Positions 4,173 through 60,978 of a stretch of DNA of 64,000 bases are shown piece by piece (the stretch's first letter is position 1; every line of letters starts with the position of its first letter). The stretch lies in NCBI GenBank assembly GCA_947500415.1, contig CANMRT010000002.1:682001-746000 (forward strand), in the 5' to 3' direction. Position numbers and translations under genes: made by a program. The notes beneath the pieces were generated by a model that ran no database searches, was not told the origin of the DNA, and was given only the letters and a program-made list of their open reading frames with translations. This DNA is from an uncultured Roseicyclus sp. GTDB lineage: Bacteria > Pseudomonadota > Alphaproteobacteria > Rhodobacterales > Rhodobacteraceae.

Positions 4173-5165
4173 TCAGCCTGCCCATGTGGCCCCAGCGGGA
4201 TCGTCGGTGGCAACGACATGGTACATTGCAGCCTCCCCCGTCATCGACGGCATTGCAGAGCGCTCCAGACCCGCCGGCACTTTCATCGTATCACCCGAGG
4301 CAAGCGTAGTTTCGCCCGCATCGAACACGCCATTTCCGTCCCAGGTCACCCGCCAATGGCCCTTTACCGGCATCAAAACCGAGGCGCGGTCATGACTGTG
4401 TTTGGCGTCCGTCGCTGAGCCACGCGTGATGAAATCCACCTCAAAACCTGGCTTGTCGCGCAACATACCGTCGGCCCCTATGACCTTGGCAGGAGAGCGA
4501 TCCGACAATGCAACCATGTCCCAATACCGCGCCACGTAGTTGGGCACGACGTCGCTTGTCGTAGGCTCGGGAAAGGCCTTCAATTCTTCCGCGGTCGGCA
4601 CCGGCATCGGTTGCACATCGGCAGGCAAGGCCTCACCCTTTTTGGTGTCGTAGAGCTTGCCCTGTTCCGACAAAACGAGGCCATGGTTTGCTGCATCTTC
4701 AATCACTTGTGGGGCCCAGATCACGCCGCCGCCTGCGTCGTCACCACCGAGGATTGCCATTATCATTCCGTAGTCATCGCCGATATTCTCAAATCCCCGG
4801 AAAATGCCCGTGGGGATGTTGAAAATATCGCCTTCCTCCAACGTGACTTCGCCCGCATCGCCATACCTGCCCCAAAAGAACCGCCAGCGGCCTTTAAGAA
4901 CAAAAAACACCTCTGCCGTGCGGTGGCTGTGAAGCGAGTTCCGGCAGTTCGGCGGCTGGCCTGCCGCGCCGATGTTGAAGCCGATTTTGTCTTTGATATG
5001 AACATGTTGGTCCGCGCTTTCGCTGACACCACCGCCAATGATCGTGAAGTTTTCCTTCTGATCGCTGCCGGGCGTATGGGCGTCGATGAAGGCGGTTTTG
5101 CAGGGGCGCAGCTCTCCGTAGCGGACAATGTTGCGCTCCATCTGGGATTGGCCGAGGTCTTTCAT
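4173..5165 (-). CDS. Bicupin protein, putative metal-dependent dioxygenase or isomerase
   Basis: 330 residues with two cupin domains. The first has the HxHx3E motif (His79, His81, Glu85) followed six residues later by Gly, but the fourth ligand His of the second cupin motif is Arg123. In the second domain His256 and His258 remain while Glu is replaced by Ser262, so only the first domain is likely to bind metal in the standard way. ATG at 5165 is chosen because GGAGG sits just upstream; an earlier TTG at 5177 is inside that ribosome site. Its leader contains an 11-bp inverted repeat and an 11-bp-periodic repeat element. Bicupins include gentisate-type and quercetin-type dioxygenases; no specific match is claimed. 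Confidence 0.75.
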   Translation of the reverse strand: MKDLGQSQMERNIVRYGELRPCKTAFIDAHTPGSDQKENFTIIGGGVSESADQHVHIKDKIGFNIGAAGQPPNCRNSLHSHRTAEVFFVLKGRWRFFWGRYGDAGEVTLEEGDIFNIPTGIFRGFENIGDDYGMIMAILGGDDAGGGVIWAPQVIEDAANHGLVLSEQGKLYDTKKGEALPADVQPMPVPTAEELKAFPEPTTSDVVPNYVARYWDMVALSDRSPAKVIGADGMLRDKPGFEVDFITRGSATDAKHSHDRASVLMPVKGHWRVTWDGNGVFDAGETTLASGDTMKVPAGLERSAMPSMTGEAAMYHVVATDDPAGATWAG

Positions 5166-5235
5166 ATCATCCTCCAATAGATGGCTCGAGGTCGAAGATC
5201 GCGGCGACGAACACCACTTTTCTGGCCGTTTTGCG

Positions 5236-5264
5236 CTGTAATGAATCTGTAGTTTTTTTGTAGT
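5236..5264 (-). promoter_or_regulatory. Triple 11-bp-phased direct repeat ahead of bicupin gene (copy A)
   Basis: Read on the minus strand, three 7-bp units ACTACAA, ACTACAG and ATTACAG follow each other with 4-bp spacers AAAA and ATTC, giving an 11-bp period. The same 29-bp layout, 26 of 29 bases identical, is found upstream of cysI at 59247-59275 in the same orientation to the gene. It ends 70 bases before the bicupin ATG. A 7-4-7 direct repeat is the arrangement bound by OmpR/PhoB-type regulators, but the protein here is unknown. Confidence 0.6.
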
Positions 5265-5283
5265 TTTTTTATAACTACAAAAA
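5255..5283. promoter_or_regulatory. 11-bp perfect inverted repeat, probable operator
   Basis: The arm TTTTTGTAGTT at 5255-5265 is the exact reverse complement of AACTACAAAAA at 5273-5283, with a 7-bp spacer. The inner GTAGTT/AACTAC cores overlap the first unit of the direct-repeat element, so the whole 5236-5283 block may be one composite binding region. As a transcript it would make only an AT-rich hairpin without a following U-run, so an operator is more likely than a terminator. Confidence 0.55.
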
Positions 5284-5478: not shown

Positions 5479-6216
5479 TCAGATGCGCCATAGGCGACCT
5501 GGATTGGTATGGGGCACCGACCTGCCAGCGCGGCGAAGCATGTGCCACGCCAGAACCTGATTGCTGGAAAGCACCGGTAGGTCGAGCGCCGCTTCGATCT
5601 CTTCAATAACATCAAGCGTCCGCAGATTGGTGCAAGATAGGAACACCGCGTCGCAATCCGCTTCTGCGGCGACTGAGATTGCCGCATCGCGGGTGGAGGA
5701 TGGGTCGATACGGACGACGCGCGCCTCTTCGGCCTCTTCGAAATTCACCACTGCAGGAAACTCCAGACCGCTCTTCTCTAACACCGCTTGCAAGTTGTCG
5801 GACACCGACGCGACGTAGGGGCTGACCAGTGCCAAACGGCGCACACCCAGATGCGCGCAGGCCGCTGCCAGGGCTGAGACGGGCTCGGTCACTGCGGCAG
5901 AGACACATCCCGCCTGCACCAATTTCGCGATCCGGTCCGATCCGATCTGAGCCGTGCCGGAGGTGCAGCCATATCCCACCGCTTCAAACCGGGCGGCACG
6001 TGGAAAGAGGGCGACAGCGCCCGCCAAGTCACCTTCCATCGCGGCAAGCGTTTCTGGCGTGACATCTTCGGCGGAGGGGATGCGCGTTACCAAGAGGTCT
6101 ACGTCATCGGGCAACAGCCTGCGCATATCGCGTTCAATGGTCTCATCAGATTGCAACACCACCAGACCCAGCTGGGGTGAATGTTCTTCGATGAGCTTGT
6201 AGGAGGCCTTGGTCAT
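5479..6216 (-). CDS. Asp/Glu racemase / maleate isomerase / arylmalonate decarboxylase-like enzyme (EutA-like)
   Basis: 245 residues. Two cysteines sit in the expected catalytic contexts: Cys84 in GYGCTSGTA and Cys195 in FLSCTNLRT. This pair is characteristic of the Asp/Glu racemase superfamily branch that holds maleate cis-trans isomerase, arylmalonate decarboxylase and the ectoine-utilisation protein EutA. The ATG at 6216 overlaps the stop of the M24 gene as ATGA; the longer reading to 6255 would run inside that gene. It is the third gene of a coupled trio. Isomerase versus racemase activity cannot be separated by these motifs. Confidence 0.82.
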   Translation of the reverse strand: MTKASYKLIEEHSPQLGLVVLQSDETIERDMRRLLPDDVDLLVTRIPSAEDVTPETLAAMEGDLAGAVALFPRAARFEAVGYGCTSGTAQIGSDRIAKLVQAGCVSAAVTEPVSALAAACAHLGVRRLALVSPYVASVSDNLQAVLEKSGLEFPAVVNFEEAEEARVVRIDPSSTRDAAISVAAEADCDAVFLSCTNLRTLDVIEEIEAALDLPVLSSNQVLAWHMLRRAGRSVPHTNPGRLWRI

Positions 6217-7358
6217 ATCACCCGGATCTCCCGACTGTCGCGGCGGCTCAACCACTCCGCCCCGCTCGCACCGATCACAATATCTTCTTCGTGGACCATA
6301 ATCTTGCCGCCGCCCATGTCCACGCCAGGCTCCAACGTCAGGACCATGCCGGGTTCTAGCACCGTGTGATCTGCCGGAATGATGGAGGGGCCTTCGGTAA
6401 GCTGCATCCCGAGGCCATGGCCCAAACGCCCGGCTTCCGAGACCGCGCCACCGGGGTTCACAACATCATTCATCGCGTGGAACAGCTCTGCAAAGGTGGC
6501 ACCGGGTTTGGCCGCTGCAAACCCCGCCTCGACCGCATCTATCAATTTGGAATGACCCGAGGCCACCGCATCCGAGGGGGCGCCGACGCTGAAATTCCGG
6601 TCGAAATCGCTGAAGTAGCCGTCGCGGATAACGCCTGTGTCCAGCATCAGAACGTCGCCCTTGCAAAGGGGTGTATCTGTCGCGGGAGAGATTACATCGC
6701 CGTAGCCGCCCTGCCCCGCAGCGCCCGCGAGGTACGGAACCCAATCTGCGCCTTCCTCAAGGCACAGCATTTGGAACCGGCGAAACACCTCGCTTAATGC
6801 GATGCCTTCGCGGGCGATTTCGCCGACGCGGTCAAAGGCGCGGTCGGCGACGGCCACCGCCGCTGCGACCTTCGCGATCTCGGCCTCGGACTTCACCATC
6901 CGCAGACGCCAAGTGATGGTATTGTCTGATACCAGCGCGCGGCCATCCAAGGCCTGTTCCAACACGCGCAGGCTTTCGCGGGGCATTCCGACGTGGCTTT
7001 CGATGTGATCGGCCAAGCCGATCCAGCCATTGGCCGACACGACCTCTCGCAGAGTCTCGGCCAGTAATCCCACCCCGTCGTCTTCATAATCCGGGGACGA
7101 CCACGTTCGGATGTCGGACACCCAGGTCTGGCCCATCAAATGCGCCCCGATGGAGGGGATGACCGCAATCGGCACGCCACTGGCCGGCAGGACGACAAAC
7201 CATGGCCGCGTCGGGCTTTCCCAGAACCGCGTCAGGAAGCCGGTATAGTAGCGGACTTCGACCTCAGTCGTCAGAAGCAGGGCCTCAAGACCCGCTTCCG
7301 CCATCGCGGCCTGTGCCCGATCGCAGCGTGCCTGAAACTCGGAAACGGGAAAGATCAC
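6213..7358 (-). CDS. M24-family metallohydrolase (creatinase/DoeA/Xaa-Pro peptidase-like)
   Basis: 381 residues. It has an N-terminal creatinase-type domain (about 1-150) and a C-terminal pita-bread domain. All five dinuclear metal ligands can be placed: Asp240, Asp251, His314, Glu343 and Glu358. The family splits Xaa-Pro peptides, creatine, or in DoeA/EutD the ring of ectoine. The gene overlaps both neighbours by 4 bp (ATGA), so it is translated with the PLP lyase and the racemase-like enzyme. With EutA-like and EutB-like partners, a small C-N substrate is more likely than a peptide; this is inference. Confidence 0.85.
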   Translation of the reverse strand: MIFPVSEFQARCDRAQAAMAEAGLEALLLTTEVEVRYYTGFLTRFWESPTRPWFVVLPASGVPIAVIPSIGAHLMGQTWVSDIRTWSSPDYEDDGVGLLAETLREVVSANGWIGLADHIESHVGMPRESLRVLEQALDGRALVSDNTITWRLRMVKSEAEIAKVAAAVAVADRAFDRVGEIAREGIALSEVFRRFQMLCLEEGADWVPYLAGAAGQGGYGDVISPATDTPLCKGDVLMLDTGVIRDGYFSDFDRNFSVGAPSDAVASGHSKLIDAVEAGFAAAKPGATFAELFHAMNDVVNPGGAVSEAGRLGHGLGMQLTEGPSIIPADHTVLEPGMVLTLEPGVDMGGGKIMVHEEDIVIGASGAEWLSRRDSREIRVI

Positions 7359-57532: not shown

Positions 57533-58927
57533 ATGCGCCATTTTCCGATCTTCCTCGACCTGCGCGGCCGCCGCGTTGTTCTGGCCGGTGGCGGTGATGC
57601 GGCCTTGGCCAAGCTTCGCCTCATCCTGAAGACCGAGGCGAAAGTGACCGTCTTCGCCGAGGACGCAGCGCCCGAGATCATTCAGTGGGACACAGACGGC
57701 AAACTTCGCCTCATCAAACGCGCCTTTGCGCCGGGTGATGCCCTTTGCGCATCGCTCGCCTATGCCGCGACGGAGAATGATGCCGAAGACGCCCGCATCG
57801 CCACGCTGGCCCGCGCGGACGGCGCGCTCGTCAACATCGTCGATAACCTCGACGGCTCCCAATTCATCACCCCCGCCATAGTAGATCGTGACCCTGTCAC
57901 AGTTGCGATCGGCACCGAAGGCGCCGCGCCTGTGCTGGCCCGCAAGATCAAGGCTGACCTTGAGGCTGCGCTCCCACCGTCGCTCGGCATCCTTGCCCGC
58001 ATCGGCCAAGGATTCCGCTCCGCCGTAAACGTCCTGCCCATGGGCCGTAAACGCCGTGATTTCTGGCGCGCGTATTACTTCAAGACCGGCCCGGAAGCCC
58101 TTGTAAGCGCTGGTGAAACCGGCGTGGAACAGGCTCTTGCCGACTTGCTGGTCGACCACATCACCGCTGACGACCGCAAAGGCCATGTGGCCCTTGTCGG
58201 CGCTGGCCCGGGCGACCCGGAACTCCTGACCCTCAAGGCCCGCAAGCTTCTGGATGAGGCCGATGTCGTCATCCACGACCGCCTCGTTGCCCCCGAAATC
58301 CTGGAGCTCGCACGGCGCGAAGCCACGCTTCTAAACGTCGGCAAGCAGGGATTCGGTCCGTCCACCCGGCAGGAAGACATCGGCGCGCTGATGGTCGAAC
58401 ACGCCCAAACCGGCGCGCAAGTTGTACGCCTGAAATCCGGCGATCCCGGTGTTTATGGACGGCTGGACGAAGAACTCGACGTGCTCGACGCGCATGGCAT
58501 CGAACGGTCCATCGTCCCTGGCATCACCGCCGCCAATGCCGCCGCAGCGCAACTTGGCCAAAGCCTCACCAAACGGGGTCGCAACTCCGCCATGCGCTTC
58601 CTGACGGGCCACGATGTGAAAGGTTTCGCCGAACACGATTGGCGCAACCTGACCAAACCCGGCCAGGTCGCCGCAATCTACATGGGCGCAAAAGGCGCGC
58701 GGTTCCTGCAAGGCCGCCTGATGATGCATGGCGCCGCCCCCGATACGCCGGTCTCCGCCGTCGAAAACGCCTCCCGCGCGGGCGCCCGTATCATCAACAG
58801 CACGCTTGCGACCCTGCCCGCCGACATCGAGGCGGCAGAAACCACCGGCCCCGTCATCCTGATGCTTGGCCTGTCCCCCCGGGCAGCCGCCGCACAACTC
58901 CCTGCCCTACAAGAGGAATTTGCATAA
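57533..58927 (+). CDS. cysG: Siroheme synthase (multifunctional CysG)
   Basis: 464 residues. Residues ~1-150 form a precorrin-2 dehydrogenase/ferrochelatase (VVLAGGGDAALAK, then NIVDNLDGSQFITPAI). Residues ~215-464 are uroporphyrinogen-III methyltransferase with VALVGAGPGDPELLTLKA, VRLKSGDPGVYGR and GPVILMLG. It makes the siroheme used by the sulfite reductase encoded next. It is the first gene of the operon, and its stop shares a base with the DUF2849 start (TAATG). Confidence 0.95.
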   Translation: MRHFPIFLDLRGRRVVLAGGGDAALAKLRLILKTEAKVTVFAEDAAPEIIQWDTDGKLRLIKRAFAPGDALCASLAYAATENDAEDARIATLARADGALVNIVDNLDGSQFITPAIVDRDPVTVAIGTEGAAPVLARKIKADLEAALPPSLGILARIGQGFRSAVNVLPMGRKRRDFWRAYYFKTGPEALVSAGETGVEQALADLLVDHITADDRKGHVALVGAGPGDPELLTLKARKLLDEADVVIHDRLVAPEILELARREATLLNVGKQGFGPSTRQEDIGALMVEHAQTGAQVVRLKSGDPGVYGRLDEELDVLDAHGIERSIVPGITAANAAAAQLGQSLTKRGRNSAMRFLTGHDVKGFAEHDWRNLTKPGQVAAIYMGAKGARFLQGRLMMHGAAPDTPVSAVENASRAGARIINSTLATLPADIEAAETTGPVILMLGLSPRAAAAQLPALQEEFA

Positions 58928-59247
58928 TGGCCCGCGCTTTCACGCCCAAAGTCCTCACCGCCAATGCCCTGCTTGAGGGCGATGTCGTCTACCTCGACGC
59001 GCAGGGTCACTGGACCCGCGATCATTTGAAGGCGACCCTTATCGAAGATGAGGCCACCGCCGACATCCGCCTTCTGGAGGCGCAGGCCCAAGGACATGAA
59101 ATCGTCGGCGCCTACCTCGCCGATGCCAAAGCCGGCCCAGACGGCCCCGAGCCCATCCATTTCCGCGAAGCGTTCCGCACCCGCGGCCCGTCCAACTATG
59201 CCCACGGAAAGCAAGCCGCGGGCCCGGACGAAGAACTACAATTGTAA
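58927..59247 (+). CDS. DUF2849 protein of the sulfite-reduction operon
   Basis: 106 residues. FTPKVLTANALLEGDVVYLD and PIHFREAFRTRGPSNYAHGKQ match DUF2849, a small protein found between cysG and the sulfite/nitrite reductase in alphaproteobacteria. No motif suggests catalysis; a role in siroheme handover is a guess. It starts on the cysG stop. Confidence 0.85.
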   Translation: MARAFTPKVLTANALLEGDVVYLDAQGHWTRDHLKATLIEDEATADIRLLEAQAQGHEIVGAYLADAKAGPDGPEPIHFREAFRTRGPSNYAHGKQAAGPDEELQL

Positions 59248-59275
59248 CTACAGAAAAACTACAGGTTCACTACAG
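59235..59275 (+). promoter_or_regulatory. Phased direct-repeat element ahead of cysI (copy B)
   Basis: ACTACA occurs at 59235, 59247, 59258 and 59269. The last three are exactly 11 bp apart with full ACTACAG units and spacers AAAA and GTTC. The first overlaps the DUF2849 end and includes the palindrome TACAATTGTA. The block 59247-59275 shares 26 of 29 bases with 5236-5264 read on the minus strand. It ends 41 bases before cysI, so it probably drives or controls an internal promoter. Confidence 0.65.
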
Positions 59276-59316
59276 GATCTTGCAGCCCATTTCGCGCCCT
59301 AAGGAGGCCCGAGCCC

Positions 59317-60978
59317 ATGTACGCCTATTCCGATTTCGACCGTGATTTCCTGGCAGAGCGCAACGCCCAGTTCCGCGCCCAGGTCGAGCGCCGCATCGAC
59401 GGCTCGCTGACCGAGGATGAGTTCAAGCCGCTGCGCCTGATGAACGGCCTCTACCTACAATTGCACGCCTACATGCTGCGCGTGGCGATCCCCTATGGCA
59501 CTCTGAACGCTGGACAAATGCGGCAACTGGCCATGATCGCCGACCGATGGGACAAGGGCTATGGCCACTTCACCACGCGCCAGAACATCCAGTACAACTG
59601 GCCCGAACTGCGCGACGTGCCCGATATGCTCGACGCGCTGGGTGAAGTTGGGATGCACGCCATCCAGACCTCGGGCAACACGATCCGAAACGTCACCGCC
59701 GACCATTTCGCAGGTGCTGCCGCCGAAGAGGTCGCGGACCCGCGCCCCATTGCCGAATTGATCCGCCAATGGTCCACCGACCACCCGGAATTCCAGTTCC
59801 TTGGCCGCAAGTTCAAGATCGCCGTGACGGGCTCCGATCAGGACCGCGCGGTGACGGCTGCGCACGACATCGGTCTGCGTCTGGTGGAACGTGACGGCCA
59901 ACTTGGCGCGACCGTTCTGGTCGGCGGCGGACTGGGCCGCACACCGATGATCGGTAAAACCCTCAATGAATTCGTGGGCTTGGACGATCTGTTTCCCTAT
60001 CTGGAGGCCATCGTCGCCGTCTACAATCTGCTGGGTCGGCGCGACAACAAATACAAGGCGCGCATCAAGATCACGGTGCACGAGAACGGCATCGAGGAAA
60101 TTCGCCGCCGCGTCGACGCCGAGTTCCCCGCCCGCAAAGCCGCCTTCAACGGCGCCGATATGGCACTGCTTGAGGAAATCGAAGCGGATTTCGCGGCCCC
60201 TGCCTTTGAGGAGGGCCAGGGCGCCTTCCCCACGCACTACCAGCATGACCCCGTCTTCCGCAGCTTCGTGGATACCAACACCAGCGCCCACAGGCATCCC
60301 GATTACGCGATCCTGACGGTCTCGACGAAGGCCCATGGTGCCACGCCGGGGGACGCCACGAGCGATCAAATGCGTGTGCTGGCCGACATCGCCGCGCAAT
60401 ACGCCCATGATGAGCTGCGCATCTCCCACGAGCAGAACGTCATCCTGCCCCACCTGCCCAAACGCCACCTGCCCGCAGTCCATGCAGCACTGGCCGAAGC
60501 CGGCCTGGCCACAGCGAACGTTGGCTTGATTTCCGACATCATCGCCTGCCCCGGCATGGATTACTGCGCGCTGGCCACAGCCCGCTCCATTCCCGTCGCA
60601 CAGGAAATTGCCCAACGGTTTGAAGCACTTAAGCTCGAACACGAAGTCGGCCCCCTGAAGATCAAGATCTCCGGCTGCATCAACGCCTGTGGCCACCACC
60701 ACGTGGGACACATCGGGATCCTCGGCCTCGACCGGGCCGGTGTGGAGAACTACCAGATTACCCTTGGCGGTGACGGTGGCCCTGACGCGGTGATTGGCGA
60801 ACGGGCGGGACCGGGCCTTGCCTATGACGAAGTGACCGATGCCATCGAGCGGCTGGTGCGTGCGTATCTCGACATCCGGCAGGATGCGTCTGAGACCTTC
60901 CTCGAAACCTACCGCCGCCTCGGCTCCGCGCCGTTCAAGGCCGCCCTCTACCCCGAGGAAAAAGCCAATGCCGCTTAA
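59317..60978 (+). CDS. cysI: Sulfite (or nitrite) reductase hemoprotein, ferredoxin-type
   Basis: 553 residues. Siroheme/4Fe-4S ligands lie in CPGMDYC and GCINACGHHHVGH (C-x5-C and C-x3-C). GLYLQLHAYMLRVAIPYG and TTRQNIQYNWPEL are the N-terminal substrate-lobe motifs. In this operon with cysH and siroheme synthase the natural reaction is sulfite to sulfide, with a ferredoxin or the FPR encoded downstream as donor; a nitrite role cannot be excluded from sequence. AAGGAGG lies nine bases before the ATG. Its end overlaps cysH by 11 bp. Confidence 0.92.
   Translation: MYAYSDFDRDFLAERNAQFRAQVERRIDGSLTEDEFKPLRLMNGLYLQLHAYMLRVAIPYGTLNAGQMRQLAMIADRWDKGYGHFTTRQNIQYNWPELRDVPDMLDALGEVGMHAIQTSGNTIRNVTADHFAGAAAEEVADPRPIAELIRQWSTDHPEFQFLGRKFKIAVTGSDQDRAVTAAHDIGLRLVERDGQLGATVLVGGGLGRTPMIGKTLNEFVGLDDLFPYLEAIVAVYNLLGRRDNKYKARIKITVHENGIEEIRRRVDAEFPARKAAFNGADMALLEEIEADFAAPAFEEGQGAFPTHYQHDPVFRSFVDTNTSAHRHPDYAILTVSTKAHGATPGDATSDQMRVLADIAAQYAHDELRISHEQNVILPHLPKRHLPAVHAALAEAGLATANVGLISDIIACPGMDYCALATARSIPVAQEIAQRFEALKLEHEVGPLKIKISGCINACGHHHVGHIGILGLDRAGVENYQITLGGDGGPDAVIGERAGPGLAYDEVTDAIERLVRAYLDIRQDASETFLETYRRLGSAPFKAALYPEEKANAA

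Follow-up and report, generated by a model that had tools for sequence, protein, structure and literature searches.

Phased four-unit repeat arrays in Roseicyclus and other Rhodobacteraceae: fixed places, changing dialects and a candidate ribbon-helix-helix reader

The analysed window is a stretch of 64,000 nucleotides from an uncultured Roseicyclus sp. (contig CANMRT010000002.1, positions 682,001 to 746,000). A siroheme synthase gene, a DUF2849 gene and a cysI-type reductase gene follow each other in this window, with a repeat array in front of cysI; another copy of the array lies upstream of a bicupin gene (Table 1). The first-pass annotation had described three ACTACAG units spaced 11 bp apart before cysI and a related block before the bicupin gene. 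Both blocks are present: the one at cysI (59247-59275, plus strand) has no mismatches to ACTACAGN4ACTACAGN4ACTACAG, and the other (5236-5264, minus strand) has two mismatches to it and shares 26 of 29 bases with the cysI block. The opinion that such a block hardly arises by chance was well founded, as none of 100 window shuffles matched at three or fewer mismatches, and the block recurs at orthologous places. It forms the central part of an array of 44 bp, in which TGTA is followed by four 7-bp units at 11 bp spacing; at cysI the fourth, looser unit is TTGCAGC (59280-59286), 11 bp further on. The consensus of 39 aligned sites is TGTA, then RYTACRG-RAWA-ACTACAG-RWTC-ACTACAG-RWTC and the looser fourth unit. 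The TAA stop codon of the translated DUF2849 gene falls within the cysI element. Judging from aligned copies, the sequence ACTACAATTGTA to the left of the array is typical of the accent of this genome (G000) and G010.

Table 1. Features of the window at the two copies of the array
Feature	Position in window	Strand	Basis and remarks
Siroheme synthase (cysG-like), upstream of DUF2849	57533..58927	+	Pfam TP_methylase, CysG_dimeriser
DUF2849 gene	58927..59247	+	Pfam PF11011 1.1e-29
ACTACAATTGTA, left of array, contains inverted half-site	59235..59246	+	read directly from sequence
Full element before cysI	59242..59286	+	TGTA, units at 59247, 59258, 59269, 59280 (loose); model match E 3.9e-13; G000:C2:741242-741286
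cysI-type sulfite/nitrite reductase gene, downstream neighbour	59317..60978	+	Pfam NIR_SIR 1.9e-55
Cupin-domain gene downstream of second copy	4173..5177	-	Pfam Cupin_2 3.1e-12; start codon provisional
Second copy, upstream of bicupin gene	5235..5280	-	model match G000:C2:687235-687280, E 5.0e-12
Arylmalonate decarboxylase or Asp/Glu racemase-like gene	5479-6255	-	

A hairpin RNA element was considered and rejected: the TTGTAGTT/AACTACAA hairpin, read by eye, is present in some copies and is broken in the TGTAACTAC form. No Rfam matches were obtained in six loci searched. The spacers of three elements (L011, L013, L022) make GTTC-N7-GTTC, which resembles the alphaproteobacterial LexA box; this pattern is not a conserved part of the element, because the spacers of other copies are too variable.

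The array was then sought in 13 genomes of Roseicyclus or close relatives, G000 included. In G000 the register is matched 25 times, 14 times in forward and 11 times in reverse orientation, and the reversed pattern has no match. A sequence-only model (E<=0.05; 150 candidates scored per genome) gave 22 distinct matches in G000, 24 in G002, 16 in G003, 22 in G004, 29 in G005, 18 in G010 and one in G012; at this threshold there were none in the six other genomes. In G000, G002 and G010 hardly any match falls in the range from the strong ones down to the threshold, and tails of weaker matches are seen in G003 and G005. The copies of G003 are weaker than those of its relatives and its cysI copy is degenerate, which would fit a system that is disappearing or one with a separate accent. 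Flanking regions were fetched for 117 of the 132 model matches, the omitted ones (10 from G003, three from G005, one each from G002 and G004) being mostly weak. When 84,980 named genomes were scanned for an exact 21-base match, 36 stretches emerged, only three of them in named Rhodobacterales or Roseicyclus (L094, L100, L105); the others are taken as chance or unrelated repeats.

At the cysI place, the element is found between DUF2849 and cysI in four of the 13 genomes (G000, G002, G005, G010), G003 has a degenerate remnant, and eight genomes have no element. The gap from the DUF2849 stop codon to cysI is about 65-70 bp in the four genomes with the element and 3-4 bp in seven of the eight without it. 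The eighth, G006, has a longer spacer carrying another repeat: its cysI upstream region (L250) contains units of about 15 bp, GATTTCGCCCCGCCA, and two inverted repeats, and may represent a different element. The copy at the bicupin place is confined to G000 among the fetched sites; the decarboxylase- or racemase-like gene adjoining it may belong to an acquired block.

The neighbours of the arrays are diverse. Gene calling around the arrays was crude, and by these calls the 117 sites comprise 77 between co-directional genes (unit on the coding strand at 51, on the opposite strand at 26), 29 between convergent genes, seven between divergent genes (several doubtful) and four unclear cases. By the same calls, 20 sites are located within an ORF, and at 36 sites at least one frame stays open over 40 codons to either side; ORFs overlapping the arrays are taken to be open by chance, the genome being GC-rich. 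The fetched sites form 27 groups with shared flanks, one of which consists of two loci, and 12 single sites. Convergent contexts confirmed by Pfam include metG against an FAD oxidase, dnaJ against malic enzyme, and GST against an HI0933-like flavoprotein. Other Pfam-confirmed neighbours are RNase E/G against a transglycosylase, ABC transporters, serS, chorismate mutase, an argC-like dehydrogenase, Lhr helicase, and an HU/IHF gene behind a tRNA read by eye. Core identity of orthologous copies is 0.77 (156 pairs), barely above the 0.72 of copies from different loci, and the flanks show 0.35-0.55, values lowered by the ungapped comparison. A second count gave 0.755 for different loci of the same genome, 0.779 for the same locus in different genomes, and 0.73 for neither.

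These contexts bear on a global transcription regulon, in which a ribbon-helix-helix (RHH) protein would repress or activate the genes adjoining each array, as BrnA does its operon. Several arrays do have a start codon 20-100 bp downstream (that of cysI, serS, chorismate mutase or the argC-like gene). However, conserved arrays also occupy the space between convergent 3' ends and positions within ABC operons, and the neighbours have no evident common function. Only four of 28 conserved loci were scored as divergent; since in each of these one or both of the neighbouring ORFs are weak (37-144 bits), no certain divergent promoter is left among the 28. The last observation, that divergent-promoter places are few or absent, also speaks for a small dispersed mobile repeat (MITE- or REP-like) that enters at the replication fork in a single orientation and is only passively kept, as does the short cysI gap in the seven element-free genomes.

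The orientation of the arrays follows strand composition. At 101 of the 117 sites the unit lies on whichever strand is C-rich in the 3-4 kb around it, and at 99 if about 150 bp around each site are excluded; by locus groups the figure is 32/40 (p 1.8e-4). The C-rich strand is the lagging-type strand, and local strand composition serves here as a proxy for DNA replication. Polarity by whole replichores, counted from the dnaA origin, is weaker: 18/23 in G002 (19/23 with skew-based ends), 12/15 in G007 and 14/21 in G004 (p 0.19). Sampled skew in G002 shows local reversals. Fork-coupled insertion yields an orientation bias, and this counts for the mobile repeat. Against it, Y1/RAYT transposases (PF01797), the family covered by the search in the six ACTACAG genomes, are absent from G000, G002, G003, G004 and G010 and below the cut-off in G005, and there are few decayed copies outside G003.

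For a regulon, the polarity is an obstacle: it holds alike where the neighbouring genes are parallel to the unit (43/51), antiparallel (23/26) or convergent (26/29). The same applies to the regulon joining cysI and the bicupin gene that had been suggested for this window. That suggestion was dropped, as it is disfavoured by copies between convergent genes, within ABC-transporter operons and near a tRNA, by an orientation that tracks local GC skew irrespective of gene direction, and by the bicupin copy itself, which is private to G000 and is one of the 16 among 117 sites that oppose the local skew. The recommended scan of the genome and its relatives did recover the block upstream of cysI in several of them, but as one place among many without an evident functional theme. 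The original observation is right and its regulon reading is unsupported; what was seen is real and, on other grounds, of greater interest than had been proposed.

Among relatives the unit changes at constant places. G007 groups with four ACTACAG genomes on the cysI and dnaA trees, though it has no ACTACAG model matches. Its chorismate mutase gap contains TATACCG GAAA TATACCC CGGA TATACCG GTTC CATATCG, that is, the same spacing with another unit. From this array at one orthologous place it was predicted in advance that G007 would hold many TATACC arrays. Indeed, there are 30 TATACC register matches in G007, 18 in G011 and 14 in G012, with none in the six ACTACAG genomes and none in the reversed control. 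Twenty arrays of G007, G011 and G012 were examined; two were loci of the candidate reader described below, one had no comparable neighbour, and in all 17 comparable cases the place and orientation were those of the ACTACAG array. G012 retains one strong ACTACAG element (L142, G012:C3:509759-509803, E 2.2e-11) inside a sugar ABC operon, which is a relic or a transfer. Places kept across dialects within the genus would suit a regulon. Insertion of a mobile repeat does not explain the dialects, as the unit sequence changes while positions and orientations stay. Considering all of the above, we regard a regulon as rather unlikely and a mobile repeat as more improbable still.

Arrays with 11-bp phasing, read individually, were found in eight further genera in other dialects. 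The dialect TACCGACGYGA occurs in G163, G131, G137 and G188, with a related form in G067; others are TACGGGGGGTG (G198), TACGGAACTCN (G078) and TACAGAACCCG (G209). Arrays of G158, G142, G133 and G022 are similar in look. The underlying scan used a loose pattern (TACNG x3) over 198 genera of the family and detects only dialects containing TACNG; its reversed-pattern control was an unfair null, being commoner than the pattern, so the dialects rest on the reading of the arrays. An earlier impression of a lineage-restricted repeat, hinted at by a hit in one of the 198 genera, was overturned by the finding of the dialects. Among 71 sites examined outside the genus, nine match the place, five are shifted and one is in the opposite orientation. 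One match, labelled g5, was due to the reader gene itself and is excluded from this comparison. In the cysI operon of G078 an array (L360) stands one gene earlier than in the window, right before the start of a DUF2849-like gene, with an offset of 349 bp. No known dialect was found in G001, G006, G008 and G009. In 400 kb of G008, about one tenth of the genome, there was no 11-bp array by a filter that passes only 64 of the 117 known sites.

The unit is on the C-rich strand at 79 of 91 sites of the other dialects, taken together over 12 genomes: G163 15/18, G198 23/25, G007 8/8, G011 6/6, G012 6/6, G137 5/5, G078 5/5 (including two poorly matching arrays), G131 4/5 and G158 1/1. It was not seen as a polarity in G209 (0/2), G188 (3/5) and G067 (3/5). 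A strand bias driven simply by composition was considered and rejected, since the G198 dialect is extremely G-rich and its units are still on the C-rich strand (L353, L359, L365, L371, L377, L400-L419); the unit's own composition is thus not the cause of the polarity. Polar arrays could also serve, like KOPS, as orienting sequences for FtsK, recognised through its gamma domain. However, among 16 genomes compared, those with ACTACAG and those with TATACC have the same gamma recognition region, from which some of the other dialects depart by one G/A, and the sites are few and not clustered in one region. Constancy of the gamma region while the dialect changes contradicts reading by FtsK, and we give this explanation practically no weight.

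One gene recurs beside arrays of several dialects despite differing neighbours. It encodes a protein of 99-170 amino acids scoring over the cut-off of the BrnA antitoxin family (PF14384) in all five cases scanned, and is called the reader below. It follows an alpha/beta hydrolase gene in G002 (G004 has the same gene by sequence), a class II aminoacyl-tRNA synthetase gene (proS by reading) in G007 and G012, and a glycine dehydrogenase gene in G209. The reader is probably an orphan RHH DNA-binding protein of the BrnA family, an assignment based on Pfam PF14384 and a sequence pattern; among solved structures the search yielded no relative, its matches being weak and unrelated. It was met in 11 of the 18 genomes with fetched arrays, and in all 11 the gene is preceded, within about 120 bp of its start, by an array in the dialect of that genome (10/10 loci, plus G137), the gene having been seen only because loci were fetched around arrays. 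It was not met in the loci fetched from G198 (25), G188 (14), G078 (9), G003 (6), G011 (6), G067 (5) and G158 (1). An array before the reader gene resembles autoregulation, which would also fit a regulon. The 7-4-7-4-7 geometry on a single helix face, pointed out in the first-pass annotation, is compatible with an oligomeric DNA-binding protein. As to the OmpR/PhoB-type operator proposed there, the direct repeats 11 bp apart on one face stand, the promoter location does not, given conserved convergent and intra-operon sites, and with a BrnA-family candidate beside the arrays an RHH protein is likelier than an OmpR/PhoB-type one.

In RHH proteins a beta-strand enters the major groove, and alternate residues of the strand face DNA. 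The presumed contact strand is QLTVRF (QTR) in all five ACTACAG genomes, KICFSV or KICMAV (KC[SA]) in both TATACC genomes, RVTARF (RTR) in the single G209 protein, and KVTLYL (KTY) in the three genera of the TACCGAC dialect with a reader (G163, G131, G137). The last three proteins are elsewhere only 43-45% identical. The G137 reader, with the expected KVTLYL, turned up among seven more loci fetched from that genome; nine further G188 loci and four further G078 loci contained no reader. Contrary to the species trees, the readers of G007 and G012 share 78% identity with one another and 44-52% with those of ACTACAG genomes. Strand residues of the reader sort by dialect, a correlation among phylogenetically non-independent sites and readers for which specific recognition would be the cause. 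From the co-location and covariation we infer that the reader binds the arrays.

The array would then be an operator of four 7-bp units 11 bp apart, on which predicted RHH dimers sit side by side on one helix face. As the reader's own gene carries an array just upstream, the protein may repress itself. About 15-30 arrays per genome would form one chromosome-wide network at fixed places, with the unit mostly on the C-rich, lagging-type strand, as at the fetched sites. Different contact residues of the beta-strand would entail different units at all places, producing lineage dialects. The joint change of about 20 sites could have proceeded by gradual drift together with the protein, or by transfer of a reader followed by re-targeting. 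The least certain part is function: the network may be a ParR/MatP-like nucleoprotein system marking or organising the chromosome for replication or segregation. The sites between convergent genes and the orientation by strand composition favour such a chromosome-level role, and on sequence evidence we consider a chromosome-wide, replication-polar, ParR/MatP-like network with self-repression somewhat more probable than otherwise, in preference to a regulator of neighbouring genes. The fuller proposal is more tentative, though a serious possibility: in this view Rhodobacteraceae have a chromosome-wide, replication-polar, centromere-like site system whose reader is an orphan RHH protein of an antitoxin family; the protein and about 20 sites would change dialect jointly, with places and direction kept, forming a private chromosome-marking code of each lineage.

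Were this so, the chromosomes of an abundant marine bacterial family would carry a conserved layer of information that escapes sequence alignment, since its letters differ from lineage to lineage. The four dialects with strand residues would be a natural protein/site series for in-place specificity change of a whole network, and the system would be a testable candidate linking replication direction and chromosome organisation outside the MatP, ParB and KOPS systems. Nothing on such a system was seen among the matches listed in open-licence literature.

Several known systems are similar in part. ParR, from the type II partition system of plasmid R1, is an RHH protein acting on the tandem direct repeats of parC; here, repeats are present, the RHH fold is suggested through the Pfam BrnA family, and binding is predicted. 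Excerpts of one article state that two or more 11-bp repeats are required by R1 ParR and that ParR families have their own repeat sequences setting incompatibility (PMC9426499). Unlike parC, about 20 four-unit arrays are spread here over a chromosome and the protein belongs to the BrnA family; no ParM-like gene was found among 18 ORFs scanned near eight readers. MatP of E. coli is likewise a chromosomal DNA-binding protein with a limited number of dispersed sites. MatP has an RHH fold, and its approximately 23 matS sites are palindromes that stand singly and are restricted to Ter, whereas the arrays are polar, four-unit, dialect-changing and spread over the chromosome (G002, G004, G007). REP/RAYT elements are also short dispersed repeats, mainly intergenic, but the present element is a direct-repeat array, with a sequence switch in place and no clear RAYT. 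The BrnA antitoxin of BrnTA shares the PF14384 domain with the reader, which differs in its extra N- and C-terminal parts and many distant sites; Pfam gave no match to the BrnT toxin among the same 18 ORFs near eight of the 11 readers. Relatives of the RHH part of the reader, with 35-49% identity, were observed in four viral contigs (L456-L459).
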